The notes under the pieces: model-generated
The model's input: the letters and a program-made list of their open reading frames with translations, nothing else
Told to the model about the DNA's origin: nothing
Database searches by the model: none
Position numbers and translations under genes: made by a program
NCBI RefSeq assembly: GCF_001435995.1
Contig: NZ_AYYQ01000035.1
Location: forward strand, 14,416-78,415
Direction: 5' to 3'
Source: Apilactobacillus ozensis DSM 23829 = JCM 17196
GTDB lineage: Bacteria > Bacillota > Bacilli > Lactobacillales > Lactobacillaceae
DNA: 64,000 bases
Part shown: piece by piece, positions 2,992 to 64,000 of the stretch
How positions within the stretch are numbered: the first letter of the stretch is position 1
Layout: the number at the start of each line of letters is the position of its first letter

Positions 2992-3468
2992 TTGGCTAAA
3001 AAAAAGCAAAAGGCAAAAGATGATAATTTAATGGCTCAAAATCGTAAAGCACGCCATGATTATAGTATTTTACAAACTTATGAAGCTGGTGTTGCTTTAA
3101 CTGGAACTGAAATTAAATCAGTTCGAGCTAGAAGGTTAAACTTAAAAGATGGATTTGCTCAGATTAGAAATGGTCAAGCGTATTTAATGAATGTTCATAT
3201 TAGTGAGTATGCACAAGGAAATCAGTTTAACCATGACCCATTAAGAAATCGAAAATTGTTATTGCATAAGCAAGAAATTAAGCGACTTGCTAACGATACG
3301 CAAAGTAAAGGAATAACGATAGTTCCTTTAAAAGTATACCTAAAACATGGATACGCTAAAGTATTGTTGGGAGTAGCTCAAGGTAAACGTGAATACGATA
3401 AACGTGAAACTATTAAACGTCGTGATCAAGATCGTCAAATTTCACGTGTATTAAAACACTATAAATAA
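2992..3468 (+). CDS. smpB: SsrA-binding protein SmpB
   Basis: SmpB binds tmRNA and delivers it to stalled ribosomes for trans-translation. The 158-residue product contains the family signatures: RKARHDY near residue 18, GTEIKSVR near 38-45, and the conserved C-terminal region [14 protein letters not shown] (about 131-145), with a basic tail. Start is TTG at 2992 preceded by AGAGGTG. It lies 20 bp after rnr and ends in its own terminator. The ssrA gene itself is not in the adjacent sequence. A tmRNA- or tRNA-like 3' fragment occurs much further right at 59154. Confidence 0.97.
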
Positions 3469-3495
3469 AAGGATTCCCATCGGGAGTCCTTTTTT
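3469..3495 (+). terminator. Terminator after smpB
   Basis: AAAGGATTCCC and GGGAGTCCTTTTTT form a short-loop stem (one G-U pair) ending in a T run, just after the smpB stop. Confidence 0.85.
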
Positions 3496-3554
3496 AGTTA
3501 ATAAAGTGTAATCGTTCACAAGACTATGATAAAATTAAAATGAGGTGTTTAGCT

Positions 3555-4241
3555 ATGCAACAATTTATTCATAATGACTGGTGGGAACAATTAGAACCAG
3601 AATTTCAAAAAGATTATTATCAAAACTTACGTAAATTTTTGGTGGATGAATATAATAACAATCTTATTCATCCAAATGCTAATCAGATTTTTGAGGCATT
3701 TAACTGGACACCTTTTAGTAAAGTTAAGGTAGTCATTTTAGGCCAAGATCCATACCATGAACCCAATCAAGCTCATGGATTAAGTTTTTCAGTGTTACCG
3801 GGAGTCAAAATTCCGCCATCACTGAGAAATATTTATAAAGAGTTACATGATGACTTAGGAATTAAGCCGGTGCAACATGGGTATTTGGAAAAATGGGCTA
3901 AACAGGGTGTGCTATTGCTTAATTCAGTTTTAACGGTTAGAAATGGTCAAGCTTTTTCACATAAAGGAAAAGGTTGGGAACGTTTAACTGATGTGGCAAT
4001 TCAAAAATTGTCTGCTCGTAAAATGCCGGTTATATTTATTTTGTGGGGTAAAGCTGCTCGTGACAAAATAAAATTAATTGATACTGATACTAACATCGTA
4101 ATTCAATCAGCACATCCAAGCCCATTGTCAGCACATCGTGGGTTCTTTGGGTCTAAACCATTTTCTAAGACTAATGAGGCCTTAGAAGCTTTAGGCGAAA
4201 AGCCAATTGATTGGCAATTGCCTGAACAAATTAATATGTAA
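3555..4241 (+). CDS. ung: Uracil-DNA glycosylase (family 1)
   Basis: Ung removes uracil from DNA in base-excision repair. The product (228 residues) shows all family-1 motifs: the water-activating loop GQDPYH near residues 63-68, the Phe stacking residue in HGLSFSV, the uracil-specific Asn in LLLNSVLTV near 121-129, and the minor-groove loop [10 protein letters not shown] near 186-195. I place the start at the ATG at 3555 because GAGGTG (3542-3547) lies 7 bases upstream; the in-frame ATG at 3540 precedes that site and has none of its own. pta follows after 19 bp with its own ribosome site, so the two may share a transcript. Confidence 0.96.
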
Positions 4242-57582: not shown

Positions 57583-57634
57583 TTAAAAAATGACTATCAA
57601 GTGTTGAATATTATTATCCAACTTTTGATAGTCA
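57583..57634 (-). terminator. Terminator of the secreted-protein gene
   Basis: ATGACTATCAA and TTGATAGTCAT, with inner GTTG/CAAC pairing, form a long stem. On the minus strand it is followed by six T, just after the stop of the gene at 57661. Confidence 0.85.
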
Positions 57635-58894: not shown

Positions 58895-58951
58895 GACCTC
58901 CCAGGTTAGTGACAAATATTCACCACGTCTAATGCCAAAAAGGGATGCTAA
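58895..58951 (-). pseudogene. Remnant of a tyrosine integrase gene
   Basis: About 19 codons on the minus strand read as an integrase fragment around the first catalytic Arg, with GIRRGEYLSLTWE. The DNA closely matches the same part of the intact integrase at 59268-60416 (near 59760-59798), differing at only a few positions over about 40 bases. No more of the gene is present on either side. A hairpin, GGGATGC/GCATCCC, adjoins it at 58942-58965. It records an earlier element at this locus. Confidence 0.72.
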
Positions 58952-59094
58952 ATTAATGGCATCCCCTTGACATATCATTCCCCAGATATAATTTATTTAT
59001 GTGTTTTTTTAACTAAGAAAATAACTAATACTAACTAAGAAAACAACTAAGATTTAATTGTTCCATTTGTTTACTTATTAGTACTAAAAATAAT

Positions 59095-59145
59095 AAAAAA
59101 GCTGATATAACAACGATTATTACCGTTAGTTATATCAGCTTTTTG
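59095..59145 (-). terminator. Terminator downstream of the tRNA/tmRNA-like 3' end
   Basis: AAAAAGCTGATATAAC and GTTATATCAGCTTTTT form a 16-bp stem. On the minus strand it follows the att-like segment by about 8 bp, the normal place for the terminator of a tmRNA or tRNA gene. Confidence 0.82.
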
Positions 59146-59153
59146 TTGGCTAA

Positions 59154-59174
59154 TGGAGTCGGCGGGTTTTGAAC
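59154..59174 (-). other. Attachment-site core resembling the 3' end of a tmRNA or tRNA
   Basis: On the minus strand the 21 bases from 59174 to 59154 read GTTCAAAACCCGCCGACTCCA. This has the look of a T-loop, the 3' half of the T-stem and an acceptor end. The upstream half does not pair (GTGGTG instead of GCGGG), so no complete tRNA is present. The integrase gene begins 94 bp away. This is the usual remnant left when an element integrates into the 3' end of such a gene. I favour tmRNA over tRNA by the CCGCC-ACTCCA ending, without proof. Confidence 0.62.
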
Positions 59175-59241
59175 ACCACAACTTTACAAATGCTTTAATA
59201 CCGCTATCCATAGGACTGTATTTACATATTTAATTGTTTGG

Positions 59242-59263
59242 TGGCTACCATATTGGCTACCAT
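59242..59263. repeat. Two direct repeats, candidate integrase arm-type sites
   Basis: TGGCTACCAT occurs at 59242-59251 and again at 59254-59263, 12 bp apart, between the att-like core and the end of the integrase gene. Tyrosine integrases commonly bind such short repeats on the attachment-site arms. Confidence 0.55.
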
Positions 59264-59267
59264 TGAC

Positions 59268-60416
59268 CTAAAAATTGAGATATTTAACTAATTTATTTAC
59301 AGCTTCTTGGTTTTGTTGATTAGTAACGTGGGTATAAATATCCATTGTAGTTTGGATGTCCTCATGACCTAATCGCTCTTGAACTTCTTTAATAGATGCA
59401 CCAGCGGAAAATAGGGCGGATGCGTGTGTATGTCTGAAACCATGCACGGTTATTTTAGTTAGGTTATGCTCTTTAATAATCTTCTTTAACCATTTAGCAG
59501 GTGTATTTAAACACTTATGATTGTTAGTGCTAGAAGCAAACACTAACTGACTTTTCTGAAAGGTATTAAATCCAAGCATCAAGTAGCGTTTACGTTGTGA
59601 TAATCGCCATTGCTCTAAATAGTCCATTGTAGACTTATCCATTTTAATAGTTCTGCGACCTTTACGTGTTTTTGGAGCTTGTACGATTTGCTTACCTTTA
59701 AGCCCTTGTGTCAATGTTTTATTAATACGGATAGTTTGCTCGTTAAAATCGATATCATCCCAGGTTAGTGCCAAGCATTCACCACGTCTAACGCCGGCAA
59801 ATGCTAATACACGGAATAGGGTATACTTTTCTAGTTCTTTATCTGGATAAATGTAACTAAAAAAGTTTAATAATTGATTCTTATCCCAGAAGTTTGCTGG
59901 TTTATCTCCATAAGCAATTTGTTTCTTAGGGATGTTTACCAGCTTACAAGGATTGTCTTTAATGTATTGCTCCTTAATAGCGTAGTCAAAGACGTTAGAA
60001 GTGTAGTTAAACCACTTTTTAAAGTTATTAGGGGCGAGCTTGAACCATTGATTAACAGCTCTTTGTATCTCATTAATCTTAATTGTGCGAATGCGTTTAT
60101 TGCCAAATGCTGGTAAGATATGATTATTAAACATTGCATCAGTTCGAGCATAAGTAGATTCACGTACTGTATTAATGTATGCTTGATACCAATGGTGATA
60201 TACTTCTTCAAATTTAATATTATTTTCTTTCTGAATGCCACCTTGTGCGACTTCAAGCTCTAATCTTGAAGCTTCTAGGGTGGCTTCTTTTTTGCTCTTA
60301 AAACCACGTCTGTTGATTCTTTGAACCTTACCAGTTTGTGGATTCAAACCACCATAAAGTTGTATTCGGTAAAGTTTATCTCCATTTTTATTTTTATAAC
60401 TTTTAATACTTGCCAT
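59268..60416 (-). CDS. int: Phage-type tyrosine integrase
   Basis: The integrase catalyses site-specific insertion and excision. The 382-residue product has an N-terminal arm-binding domain (about 1-60, with the AP2-like pattern [19 protein letters not shown]), a core-binding SAM-like domain (about 65-165) and a catalytic domain with [14 protein letters not shown] (first Arg, about 205), HGFRHTHAS (His and second Arg, about 321-325) and [15 protein letters not shown] (His, and nucleophile Tyr near 360). The start is ATG 60416, with AAAGGG 9 bases upstream; the ATG at 60425 is too close to that site. It sits next to the att core, as in satellites and prophages. Confidence 0.95.
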
Positions 60417-60563
60417 TCTATACATCCCTTTTTATATCGTTGGGGAAATTGGGTATGTATTTATAGTTATTATTTTAATATTAAATTTAATATACTAAAC
60501 GTGTTTAATTACGTAACCATTTAAATATGGAAAATAGTCCATTTCTTCTAATCTTACATAATA

Positions 60564-61139
60564 TTATTTTTTTAAACTTCCATCATCATTATATAACTCT
60601 AACACGTCATCTAGCAGTTTTTCGGTTATGTTACCAGCATTTCTATTACAATGGCGACTAGATACAAAAGCGATAAAGACTCCATTTAAAATGAATAACA
60701 TAGTTTCCACAGAACTACTATCTGTGCGGTCATTATTAATAATAGATCGTTCAATTTTTTTAAATTCCTCATCGATTTGTTGAAACTCTTTATCTGGTAA
60801 ATCGGATTCATTAGTAGTTAGAAATAATTTTCTTAATTGTTTGCATTGAGCATATAACCGCTCTTGTTGAATATTTTCTAATTCACGCGTAGAAAGTTGG
60901 CTTAAGTTAACATTTTCAGGTTGGCGAACATTGCTCAACCCTTGAATATAAGTAATGCTAACTTGAAAGTAATGAGCTAATGCATTCCAAGTGGATAACT
61001 TAGGTTCACGGACTTCACGTTCATATTTAGCCAACGCATCGGCTGAAATATTTAAATTTTCTTTTTTCTTTAATTCGTCTGACAGTTTAGCTAGGGAAAT
61101 CCCTTTATCTGTACGGACTTCACGTAATCTATTGTACAT
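60564..61139 (-). CDS. XRE-family repressor of the integrated element
   Basis: The 191-residue product has an N-terminal XRE HTH (about 1-65) with KGISLAKLSDELKK and ISADALAKYEREVREPKLSTW, then a helical C-terminal region (about 85-191). There is no Ser-Lys peptidase motif, so it is not a LexA/CI-type self-cleaving repressor. In phage satellites such a gene, transcribed away from the excision genes, acts as master repressor. The start is ATG 61139 with GAGGTG on the minus strand. It is divergent from the AlpA-like genes, with three GTCTTG half-sites in between. Confidence 0.88.
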   Translation of the reverse strand: MYNRLREVRTDKGISLAKLSDELKKKENLNISADALAKYEREVREPKLSTWNALAHYFQVSITYIQGLSNVRQPENVNLSQLSTRELENIQQERLYAQCKQLRKLFLTTNESDLPDKEFQQIDEEFKKIERSIINNDRTDSSSVETMLFILNGVFIAFVSSRHCNRNAGNITEKLLDDVLELYNDDGSLKK

Positions 61140-61196
61140 ATTTAACACCTCGCTTAATAAGAGTATAACAAAAAATAGCACAATTCAATACTAAAT

Positions 61197-61257
61197 GTCT
61201 TGACAGCCGAAAATATTTTGTATATTATTAATCTCATCAACAAGACAAATCGTCTTG
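61197..61257 (+). promoter_or_regulatory. Promoter and operator of the element's rightward operon
   Basis: TTGACA (61200-61205) and TATTAT (61223-61228) with a 17-bp spacer form a good promoter. A GTCTTG at 61197-61202 overlaps the -35. A perfect dyad, CAAGAC-AAATC-GTCTTG, lies at 61241-61257 just after the expected transcript start. The repeated half-site in this divergent control region is a likely operator for the XRE repressor. Confidence 0.65.
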
Positions 61258-61281
61258 AAAAATATTTGGAGGCTATTTATT

Positions 61282-61470
61282 ATGAACAACAATGCACGTT
61301 ACTTGAAATACAAGGAAGCTATGAAGTATTTGGATATCAACAGTTACATTACATTAAAGAAAATGATTGAGAATGGATTACCAATTATCAAGGTAGGAAA
61401 CGTCAAACGTATCGATAAACAACAACTTGATCAATACATGTTAGGTAATACTGTGCAGGAGCGTGCTTAA
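61282..61470 (+). CDS. AlpA-like HTH protein (excisionase or activator)
   Basis: The 62-residue product is a small winged HTH of the MerR/Xis type: RYLKYKEAMKYLDINSYITLKKMIENGLPIIKVG contains the helix-turn-helix, and KRIDKQQLDQYML the usual C-terminal helix of HTH_17 proteins. In phage satellites the first rightward gene of this kind often drives excision or activates the element. The start is ATG 61282 behind GGAGG; upstream in-frame codons lie within the operator. Its TAA overlaps the next ATG by one base. Confidence 0.82.
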   Translation: MNNNARYLKYKEAMKYLDINSYITLKKMIENGLPIIKVGNVKRIDKQQLDQYMLGNTVQERA

Positions 61471-61739
61471 TGGAATTTAAACTCCCACCAGCTCAAGAAA
61501 CTGCTTTTTACAACTATGTACAAGAACTAATGCATCAAGCAATCTTGAATGCGGAAGATAAGGTTAATCTAAACACGCCCTGGCTTAAAGGTAAGAAACA
61601 AGCTGCTAAGTGGTTAGGGATTAGTCCACAGTCATTAGCGAAACTTATGGCGCAAGGTTTGCCCGTCCATTATCTAGATGATATGGAAGTTGTATTTTTT
61701 AACAAGCAAGAAATTAATAAATATTTATTAGCACAATAA
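61470..61739 (+). CDS. Second HTH_17-like small DNA-binding protein
   Basis: The 89-residue product has an N-terminal helical segment (about 5-30) and a C-terminal HTH (about 40-85) with GKKQAAKWLGISPQSLAKLMAQGLPVHYL and FFNKQEINKYLL. This is the same plan as the preceding protein but with different sequence. The ATG at 61470 overlaps the upstream stop by one base, so translation is coupled. Two adjacent AlpA/Xis-like genes are a common feature of Gram-positive satellite elements. One may be the excisionase and the other an activator; which is which cannot be told. Confidence 0.75.
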   Translation: MEFKLPPAQETAFYNYVQELMHQAILNAEDKVNLNTPWLKGKKQAAKWLGISPQSLAKLMAQGLPVHYLDDMEVVFFNKQEINKYLLAQ

Positions 61740-61808
61740 AAAACATGTCGTTGGGGAATGGGATGTTAACAAGGAAGTTACAAAATGGATAAATTAGGGT
61801 ATAAAAAA

Positions 61809-61869
61809 AGACCGTTTTACTTTGGCGAGTAACGGTCTGATAAGTCTTCAGGTATAAGGCTTTTATACC
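61809..61869. repeat. Two adjacent hairpins before the primase gene
   Basis: AGACCGTT (61809-61816) pairs with AACGGTCT (61831-61838), and GGTATAA (61851-61857) pairs with TTATACC (61863-61869). On the minus strand the first hairpin is followed by a run of T, so it could end a leftward transcript. The pair may also be a replication origin or an attenuator. A 15-codon frame starting ATGGATAAA near 61784 with AAGGAAG in front is present but too short to call. Confidence 0.5.
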
Positions 61870-61912
61870 CTTTATTATATCAAAAAATACAATTAAATAA
61901 AGGGGTACGCAC

Positions 61913-64000
61913 ATGGCTACCTGGGAATACATTCAAGCACTATCTAGTAATGGAATTTGTCTTTATCCATTGATTAAAGGCACGAAACGTCCAGCAATTA
62001 AGGACATGTTGAATCAAGCGACCAATGATATTGAACAACTAACGGAGTGGTTTCAACCGCAAGCAGATGGAAATGTTTTATATGATGTAGCGATAAACCC
62101 TAGCAAGAGTAATTTAATCGTGATTGATGTGGATAATCACGACCAACAGTTGAGTGGTACGAAGTGGTTAAATGATAAAGAACTAGCTGGTTATAAAATG
62201 GATAGCTCTGTTATTGAAATAACCCCTAATCAAGGGATACATTTTTTCTATCTAAATGATTTGGAGATTGATGTACCAAGTCAACTAAGTTTGGATAAAT
62301 GTGGGGCGATTGAAGTTAAGACCACGTCGACAATTATTTATCCGAGTGCTGGCTATCGACAAACCGCTAACGACCAGTTATTAATCAATACCACGGTGCC
62401 ACCGATGCCAAAATGGTTAAAGCGTTTGATTACTAAGTCTATTGAAACTAAAGCAAGGCAACCAGCATCCCCAACTACGGATGATAACATCAATGTTAAG
62501 GCTCATAGTTGGTTGTTAAAGCTCACGGACATGTATATTCATGGAATTAAGCAGGGACAACGTAATACTCAAATGGTGCAGATATTAGGAAAGTTATTTT
62601 TTACAGGTGCAGATCAAACATTAGTATGGAAATGGTTCAACCACATTAATGATAACTATGTGCAACCATCCCTTAAGCCTAGTGAAATGAAAGCAATCTT
62701 TAAAAGTATTGCTAACAAGCCCCACCAAGTCATTCATACCGAAAACTTTGATGAATTACAACAAGCATGTAGGGATGCGAAAAGGTTAGTACAACAGAGT
62801 AGGGATGGTAAGCTAAGTTATTTAAATGGTGCGCAAATCATGTTGAAATACTTTCACTTCACACGTTTTTCAATTGATGAGGGTGAACGAGTGGCCGTCT
62901 ATGTAAGTGATGAACGCAGTCCGTGGTTTGGGCTGTACACACGTAATTATGATTATATCCGTCGTTTAATCAATGCAATGTACATGAACTATAGTAGTAA
63001 GGGGATTGGCGAAGTTCTCAACAAGATTGAAATGTTGATTACAGAAATTCGTCAACCAGAACACACCAAGGACTTAATTCCAGTTGGTAACGGGATTTTT
63101 AACCTAAAGACCAAGCAGCTAGAACCATATACGCCTGCTCACGTCTTTTCCAGTAAAGTTAGTACTCGTTATGATGCTAAATACAATGAACCAGCTAATA
63201 CCCCTAATTTAGATGGATGGGATGTTGATAGTTGGTTGATGAACTTAGCTAAAGATGAAGCAGGTAACGTGGATAAGCAAGTAGAGACTTTATTTTGGCA
63301 AGTCTTAGCCGATGCTTTAAATGGAAACTATACACGTCGTAAAGCGATTCTCTTAAACTCCGAACTTGGTAACAGTGGTAAGGGGACGTTTCAGAGCTTG
63401 ATAGCTAATCTAGTCGGTCAACATAACGTGGCCACGCTTAAAGTGAATGAATTTGGCGAACGTTTTGCGATGTCACGCTTAATGGGTAAATCGGTCTGTA
63501 TTGGCGATGATAACCCGAGTGGCTATATTCGTGATAGTAGCAACTTTAATAGTGTGGTAACGGGGGATGTGGTTAATATTGAGTATAAGGGCAAGGATAG
63601 TTTTACCACTCAACTAACTCCGACTGTCATTCAATCCTTTAATGGCTTACCGCACTTTAGTAATAAGGGTGGAACGTATCGTCGGATGTTGATTGTGCCA
63701 TTTCGTCAACATTATCAAGGCAATTCAGATAACTGGAAGATTAAGGATATTTACTTAAAGCGTGCTGATGTCTTAGAATATGTATTATTTAAAGCTCTGA
63801 ACGTGTATTCAGACTTTGATAAGTTCATTGTTCCCGATGTATCTAATCAAGCTTTAAATGAGTTTGAAAAGGAGAACGATCCAATTAAGGAGTTCGTGGA
63901 TGAAGAGTTTAGGCAATGGGATGTTGCACGGATTAGCACTAAAGCGGTTTATATTGCTTATACCCGTTATTGTAGCGAGAATGGGTACGCAGCGACTTCC
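61913..64000 (+). CDS. Satellite replication protein: primase-polymerase plus SF3 helicase (continues beyond the window)
   Basis: An ATG at 61913 with AAAGGGG upstream opens 696 codons with no stop before the window ends. The N-terminal part (about 10-190) is a bifunctional primase/polymerase (Prim-Pol) domain with the metal motif VIDVDN near 70-75 and the His in ITPNQGIHFFYL. The C-terminal part is a phage D5/P4-type SF3 helicase: Walker A NSELGNSGKGTF near 482-493, Walker B SVCIGDDNP near 527-535, and motif C with Asn in QSFNGLPHF near 573-581. It would prime and unwind DNA at the element's origin. Confidence 0.93.
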   Translation, partial: MATWEYIQALSSNGICLYPLIKGTKRPAIKDMLNQATNDIEQLTEWFQPQADGNVLYDVAINPSKSNLIVIDVDNHDQQLSGTKWLNDKELAGYKMDSSVIEITPNQGIHFFYLNDLEIDVPSQLSLDKCGAIEVKTTSTIIYPSAGYRQTANDQLLINTTVPPMPKWLKRLITKSIETKARQPASPTTDDNINVKAHSWLLKLTDMYIHGIKQGQRNTQMVQILGKLFFTGADQTLVWKWFNHINDNYVQPSLKPSEMKAIFKSIANKPHQVIHTENFDELQQACRDAKRLVQQSRDGKLSYLNGAQIMLKYFHFTRFSIDEGERVAVYVSDERSPWFGLYTRNYDYIRRLINAMYMNYSSKGIGEVLNKIEMLITEIRQPEHTKDLIPVGNGIFNLKTKQLEPYTPAHVFSSKVSTRYDAKYNEPANTPNLDGWDVDSWLMNLAKDEAGNVDKQVETLFWQVLADALNGNYTRRKAILLNSELGNSGKGTFQSLIANLVGQHNVATLKVNEFGERFAMSRLMGKSVCIGDDNPSGYIRDSSNFNSVVTGDVVNIEYKGKDSFTTQLTPTVIQSFNGLPHFSNKGGTYRRMLIVPFRQHYQGNSDNWKIKDIYLKRADVLEYVLFKALNVYSDFDKFIVPDVSNQALNEFEKENDPIKEFVDEEFRQWDVARISTKAVYIAYTRYCSENGYAATS

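Follow-up and report, generated by a model that had tools for sequence, protein, structure and literature searches.

A probable phage satellite at the ssrA 3' end of Apilactobacillus ozensis, with predicted type III restriction genes and an origin-linked hairpin

Location and attachment site

Apilactobacillus is a genus found with bees and flowers. This report concerns an integrated element that begins near the right end of a 64,000-nucleotide stretch of the Apilactobacillus ozensis DSM 23829 genome (contig NZ_AYYQ01000035.1, positions 14,416 to 78,415), hereafter the window, and that has the anatomy of a phage-inducible chromosomal island (PICI). The host contig (C8, 248,571 bp in a genome of 1.48 Mb) runs on past the window end. 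Positions to the right are given on L002, a 20-kb segment starting at window position 57585 (window coordinate = L002 position + 57,584); the following 18 kb (L003) were scanned for tRNA genes only.

The element spans window positions 59130 to 69812 (right end extrapolated), or 10.6 kb, between 45-bp direct repeats that lie 10,638 bp apart and are identical at 43 of 45 positions. In a repeat search, the left repeat, attL (59130-59174), is a copy of the 3' end region of ssrA, exact over its first 37 bp, and the right repeat, attR (L002 12184-12228), overlaps the 3' end of the complete tmRNA gene ssrA (L002 12208-12577, minus strand; tmRNA scan), the host target gene. Insertion leaves ssrA whole. 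An earlier note, drawn from the sequence of the left end, had described an att-like core of 21 bp and an element cut by the window edge. The core is real and larger than noted; its second copy does lie to the right, and the element ends at L002 12228. A 19-bp core pattern allowing up to three mismatches occurs once in the window (0.00 expected from shuffling), and the ssrA region, used as a query against its own genome, returns these two att places only. Two TGGCTACCAT units at 59226-59265 recur at the right end (L002 12070-12109; repeat match 85%), and these units just inside both element ends look like arm sites of the integrase.

The gene ssrA is present in 15 of 16 Apilactobacillus genomes searched. 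A second, partial copy of its 3' end is found in three of them: the own genome (G000), genome G011, where an island uses the same ssrA site, and A. xinyiensis F575-4 (G014), where the copy measures 24 bp and lies on another contig. In A. micheneri Hlig3 (G009; the names of G014 and G009 are inferred), a sequence resembling the left flank of the island (80% over 399 bp) is separated from ssrA by about 0.3 kb, and the interval holds no island. Thus, the element has a specific attachment site with direct repeats, as PICIs do.

Both flanks hold further features. Just left of attL are a fragment of an integrase gene (58899-58936; 89% to the island's integrase gene over 38 bp) and short direct repeats (58980-59090, by eye), together likely left behind by an element that once occupied this site. 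Directly past ssrA, outside the island, L002 12742-13434 encodes a protein with a Peptidase_C39_2 match barely above the cut-off, and this stretch is also kept beside ssrA in G011.

Gene content

Eight genes are called between the att repeats, all of them open. The order is integrase, repressor, two AlpA/excisionase-like proteins, Prim-Pol/SF3 helicase, lipoprotein, iteron origin, hairpin, and the type III genes mod and res. Open reading frames were listed from 45 amino acids beyond the window (L002 4200-20000) and from 40 inside it, so that smaller genes could be missed; family scans took in the eight called genes only.

The tyrosine integrase (380 amino acids; 59268-60410, minus strand) matches Phage_integrase with E 3.3e-30 and has SAM-like and arm-binding domains. 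The XRE/CI-like repressor (192 amino acids; 60564-61142, minus strand) has HTH_3 as its sole Pfam family above the cut-off, and a family search at E 0.05 detects no LexA/S24 peptidase in it. On the plus strand follow AlpA/excisionase-like helix-turn-helix protein 1 (61282-61470, ATG start chosen by eye; scanned as 61255-61470) and AlpA-like helix-turn-helix protein 2 (89 amino acids; 61470-61739), both with HTH_17 matches below the cut-off. The Prim-Pol/SF3 helicase (755 amino acids; 61913-64180, or L002 4329-6596, plus strand) crosses the window edge at 64000 and displays Prim-Pol, PriCT_1, D5_N, DUF5906 and Pox_D5 domains. These assignments agree with the earlier note, which had read a minus-strand integrase, a minus-strand XRE repressor lacking a LexA-type peptidase, a divergent AlpA-like pair and a Prim-Pol/SF3 helicase. 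Integrase and repressor thus point leftward, and excisionase-like and primase-replication genes rightward, the arrangement of PICIs, with the proviso that the excisionase match is below cut-off.

A 387-bp gene on the minus strand (L002 6627-7013) encodes a putative lipoprotein, its signal sequence judged by eye. Neither of its Pfam matches, to GH43_C (E 1.6e-4) and to a lactophage receptor-binding head domain (E 0.031), reaches the cut-off. The best structural model has a moderate pLDDT of 76.9 and the other four at most 60.5 (two sequences), and the best fold matches are a putative Shewanella lipoprotein (E 0.007) and NlpE (E 0.025). A role in superinfection exclusion would be a guess.

Among the eight genes, no convincing match is found to terminase, capsid, tail, lysis, relaxase, partition or conjugation families; a match of mod to a PHROG terminase family (E 0.025) is weak and read as chance. 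Because family searches assign no such function to any of the eight, the element is taken to be neither a full prophage nor conjugative or mobilisable. This supports the earlier note, which had proposed a PICI-type island and not a full prophage, as do the origin layout and the sister island described below. In the window, GC content is 0.315; the primase gene stands above this at 0.38, and mod (0.28) and res (0.30) below.

A putative iteron origin

The iterons of the putative origin (L002 7112-7489) are TGGGACA repeats. Nine copies occur in L002 7001-7500 and none elsewhere in the 20 kb, compared with a mean of 0.055 and a maximum of two in 200 shuffles. Two inverted iteron pairs flank 72 bp of AT-rich DNA (21% GC). 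PICI origins are described, in the part of PMC6092414 available, as two sets of iterons around an AT-rich region; here, the same layout lies 3' of the replication gene, with the lipoprotein gene between.

This organization recurs on a plasmid of A. xinyiensis, with 11 TGGGACA copies and a 71-bp stretch between them; nine of 10 GGGACA sites of the island are matched there in the same orientation and at the same distance to within 2 bp. Other repeats follow the primase gene in G009 (CGTAACA, nine copies) and G011 (AGTGTAC, nine copies) in a similar layout; both were picked post hoc as top k-mers without a shuffle control. Distinct repeats are expected if each initiator reads its own iterons.

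A large hairpin beside the origin

Folding reveals a hairpin of about 315 nt (L002 7494-7808) within about 15 bp of the last iteron, both here and in its only known second copy, on the A. xinyiensis plasmid. The stretch L002 7490-7812 folds with -144.7 kcal/mol (z = -15, 100 shuffles). As the opposite strand folds too (z = -12.6), the strand is undecided. When the island and plasmid copies are aligned, the consensus has 91 pairs, of which 15 are changed on both sides and none is broken, this consensus having been chosen on the same two sequences. The island fold scored on the plasmid copy gives 12 double changes, four single compatible changes and 13 broken pairs out of 112, while random placement of the substitutions breaks 31.1 pairs on average and at least 21. 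Conversely, the plasmid fold scored on the island gives 13 double and four single compatible changes, with 17 of 123 pairs broken against a random average of 38.3 and a minimum of 27. Since fewer pairs are broken than under random placement, the comparison of the two sequences indicates that the structure is maintained by compensatory changes. Correction between the arms of the inverted repeat could give the same pattern without selection, and two sequences make a small sample.

The hairpin is rare. A covariance model detects it in two of 397 genomes of the family and BLAST in two of 41, at one place each; plasmid records and phage records give no match, and two exact hairpin segments both score 0 in viral_contigs. 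A scattered MITE is unlikely given these counts, the covariance search having used stricter filters. In 22 loci searched with the covariance model at E <0.1, the other matches are inverted iteron pairs only (20.3 and 15.5 bits). A known RNA family is likewise rejected, the sole Rfam match inside the hairpin being an animal miRNA model (29.4 bits, against a gathering score of 88). In 300-bp windows taken every 150 bp, no hairpin of like strength appears in G009, G011 or a small A. kunkeei circle, the best reaching -4.4 robust standard deviations, where the two known copies score -9.4 and -8.2.

Island and plasmid are homologous in DNA sequence over L002 4198-7805, up to the outer edge of the hairpin, and over a separate stretch at 3231-3856. 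The very large origin-linked hairpin is an unexplained odd feature of the island. Its position hints that it is most likely part of the origin, or a border between core and cargo. More tentatively, it may be a new kind of satellite origin element or a structured RNA, which might let the replication core swap between integrated satellite and plasmid while the cargo on the far side changes; this idea is possible and less probable than not.

Predicted type III restriction cargo

Beyond the hairpin, mod (L002 7873-9609, start by eye; longest open reading frame from 7795) and res (L002 9606-11861) are adjacent on the plus strand with a 4-bp overlap. The former matches N6_N4_Mtase and the PADLOC model MTase_III (E 6.9e-99), the latter ResIII and REase_III (E 5.6e-21). 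By family and arrangement, the pair is a predicted type III restriction system, carried as cargo at the 3' end of the island. In the 397 family genomes, the closest near-full-length Mod proteins are 50% and 44% identical, and in two further genomes identity is 57-62%, over stretches of 178-230 residues; within the genus (16 genomes), weak partial matches occur in two besides the own. As close relatives of mod are few, the cargo may be a recent or rare acquisition by this element.

Relatives, and what they imply for the nature of the element

The sister island of G011 (L045 5150-15858) occupies the same ssrA site. It resembles the present island by its integrase (85% over 299 amino acids), an AlpA-like protein (62%) and iteron-like repeats after the primase, and differs by a terminase small subunit (TerS; Terminase_2, E 1.3e-25), a VapE-type helicase domain, an integrase start in another frame, and a unit TACTGTCAT inside both ends in place of TGGCTACCAT. 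The related element of G009 lies at another site (integrase 78%, primase 57-60%, AlpA-like protein 2 63%). That of G013 encodes an integrase (74%), AlpA-like proteins, matches to a Rha-like protein (50% identity) and to the VapE-type primase (52%) of G011, and a weak TerS-like protein (29% over 129 amino acids, E 5e-7, without an NCBIfam match). To the right of its replication genes (L046 14929-18837) are two type II methyltransferases and an HNH nuclease, which may be a further restriction cargo.

The A. xinyiensis plasmid (L038, contig C34 of G014) measures 17,803 bp with 77-bp identical ends, partly of low complexity, and is probably a circle of 17.7 kb. Repressor (58%), AlpA-like protein 1 (77% over 62 amino acids), primase (82%), lipoprotein (74%), iterons and hairpin follow the same order as in the island. 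Unlike the island, it has no integrase or AlpA-like protein 2 that could be found, and it carries RepA-like and ParA-like genes (RepA_N match below cut-off), a DRT2-type reverse transcriptase and a type II restriction enzyme. A retron link suggested by this reverse transcriptase is dropped, because none of the island's genes is one.

These two relatives bring in a first alternative, that the element is a satellite derivative that lost its packaging module, a stranded defence island that excises and replicates and no longer exits in particles. The sister in the same site has TerS, while no terS is recognised here and restriction genes occupy the 3' end; the core also occurs on a plasmid lacking an integrase. 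Against this, all eight genes are open and both att ends are present, and terS is only sometimes present in PICIs according to the available part of PMC6092414. This alternative is possible, at well under even odds; it is compatible with a PICI-type satellite as to kind, the odds of the two overlapping, and differs on movement with phage.

The spread of the primase bears on a second. Matches occur in 145 of the 397 family genomes (E 1e-3), and among the matches listed only G014 (82%) and G009 exceed 55% identity besides the own genome; the primase also matches 726 phage records, and 65 plasmid records of the 72,556 searched, all below 60%. A 13,561-bp plasmid record of A. kunkeei HNS-8 from bee bread (unnamed2; L081, CP094921.1) is an exact tandem repeat with a period of 6,765 bp, likely one small circle deposited as a dimer, and each unit encodes a recombinase and a related primase (41% identical). 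Primase relatives on 65 plasmid records, and a plasmid as the seat of the nearest relative among the matches listed, would suit an integrative plasmid-like element and not a satellite, with an integrase and its own replicon, moved by transformation or other mobilisation. This is unlikely: families of relaxase, partition or conjugation proteins find no match among the eight genes, the genes and origin are laid out as in PICIs, and TerS is encoded in the sister island.

Integrase families seem to be common to phages and satellites in this genus. Related integrases are encoded in G010 (L115 10765-11913, 68%) and, as a fragment, in G006 (L117 9440-10039, 69%), both beside an apt-like gene (by eye), and in G006 with an SPP1-type portal gene nearby. 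Integrase fragment and portal gene are about 4.4 kb apart and enclose a gene 30% identical to that of the sister TerS, which raises a third alternative, that the element is what is left of an ordinary prophage after loss of its structural genes. Compact open genes between att repeats and a satellite-type origin speak against it; moreover, integrase, AlpA-like and Prim-Pol genes are common to the elements of G009, G011 and G013, beside which no structural genes appear in the stretches read (by eye, some proteins scanned). A prophage remnant is therefore the least probable of the three, and very improbable.

A candidate helper in the same genome

Contig C4 (L128 and L129; 38,106 bp) carries the same 55 or 56 bases at both ends, and it is therefore probably circular, of about 38.05 kb. 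Eight of its proteins were scanned, covering TerS, TerL, major head, tail sheath, endolysin, ParA, integrase and a DnaD-like/replication-initiation protein, and a family search adds an SPP1-type portal. Across 16 genomes, the portal family PF05133 is found in eight, the own included, and PF04860 in none. The gene that spans the C4 ends encodes a protein sharing 72% identity with the RepA-like protein from the A. xinyiensis plasmid, and the ParA-like proteins of the two are 38% identical. By these features, C4 is probably a circular phage-plasmid, and it could be the helper of the island.

Interpretation and proposed mechanism

Collectively, the element is most plausibly a phage satellite of the PICI type, complete, 10.6 kb long and inserted at the ssrA 3' end, with a probability of about 85%. 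Points in favour are the att repeats at ssrA, the G009 locus in which a similar flank lies close to ssrA, the gene content, the iterons, the sister island with TerS, and two extrachromosomal replicons that carry relatives of the primase, the A. xinyiensis plasmid and the A. kunkeei circle. Several observations weigh against this interpretation. AlpA-like protein 1 scores 26.6 bits against the TIGR01764 'excise' model, short of the curated cut-off of 28.8. No capsid-remodelling, phage-interference or terS gene is recognised among the eight, although such genes may be unrecognisable by sequence. In viral_contigs, 78 stretches fit the primase pattern and none is confirmed as a relative. A comparison of C4 with the island finds no convincing shared DNA that would point to a common cos or pac site (best match 27 bp at 85%, E 0.10). 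The case for a satellite rests on anatomy and relatives, with induction and packaging by a phage as proposals.

In the proposed cycle, the integrase would recombine the ssrA-derived core through the arm sites at both ends, with one of the AlpA-like proteins as the presumed excisionase. The XRE repressor would hold the rightward genes off. As it lacks a peptidase domain, the sole basis for this point, release may come from a helper-phage protein and not from RecA/LexA and the SOS response. The Prim-Pol/SF3 protein would bind the TGGGACA iterons, melt the AT-rich stretch and replicate the excised circle, in keeping with the observed layout. With no recognised packaging gene, a helper must supply packaging, if any, and the DNA may leave in helper particles or by lysis followed by natural transformation. 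The type III restriction system, judged by its family, would shield the host from competing phages.

On this interpretation, a small, fully bounded satellite is now available in Apilactobacillus, and the same genome holds its candidate helper, C4. In this genus, a single att site would serve satellites that carry a terminase gene as well as ones that lack it, and one core is found both integrated in a chromosome and on a plasmid; the transition between satellite and plasmid therefore becomes testable. The hairpin and the plasmid form of the core are the points of specialist interest, the remaining parts being ordinary for PICIs.

Comparison with known satellites

A literature search on Apilactobacillus satellites and phage, among sources available in part, turned up nothing beyond a review. 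The closest parallel is with the Gram-positive, SaPI-like PICIs, as far as the available text of PMC6092414 describes them: integrase and repressor point leftward, excisionase-like and primase-helicase genes rightward, the origin follows the replication gene and accessory genes occupy the 3' end. The island departs from them by a lipoprotein gene before the origin and the hairpin of about 315 nt, and no terS, capsid or interference gene is recognised in it. The StCI satellites of Streptococcus thermophilus, in the accessible part of PMC13376191, likewise combine integrase, regulatory and replication genes without structural genes; such satellites measure 7 to 20 kb, and a probable restriction-modification and/or abortive infection system is present in at least 16 StCIs. 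Their direct repeats are shorter (16-18 bp), and the main text mentions neither ssrA nor tmRNA. Induction by a virulent phage is shown there, and induction by a helper phage is a proposal for the Apilactobacillus island. The PICMIs of Vibrionaceae, likened here by their description in the part of PMC10803314 at hand, integrate beside fis, unlike the present island in ssrA of Apilactobacillus. They are similarly minimal satellites without capsid remodelling genes, and in some of them the interval from prim to fis holds type I or II restriction systems.

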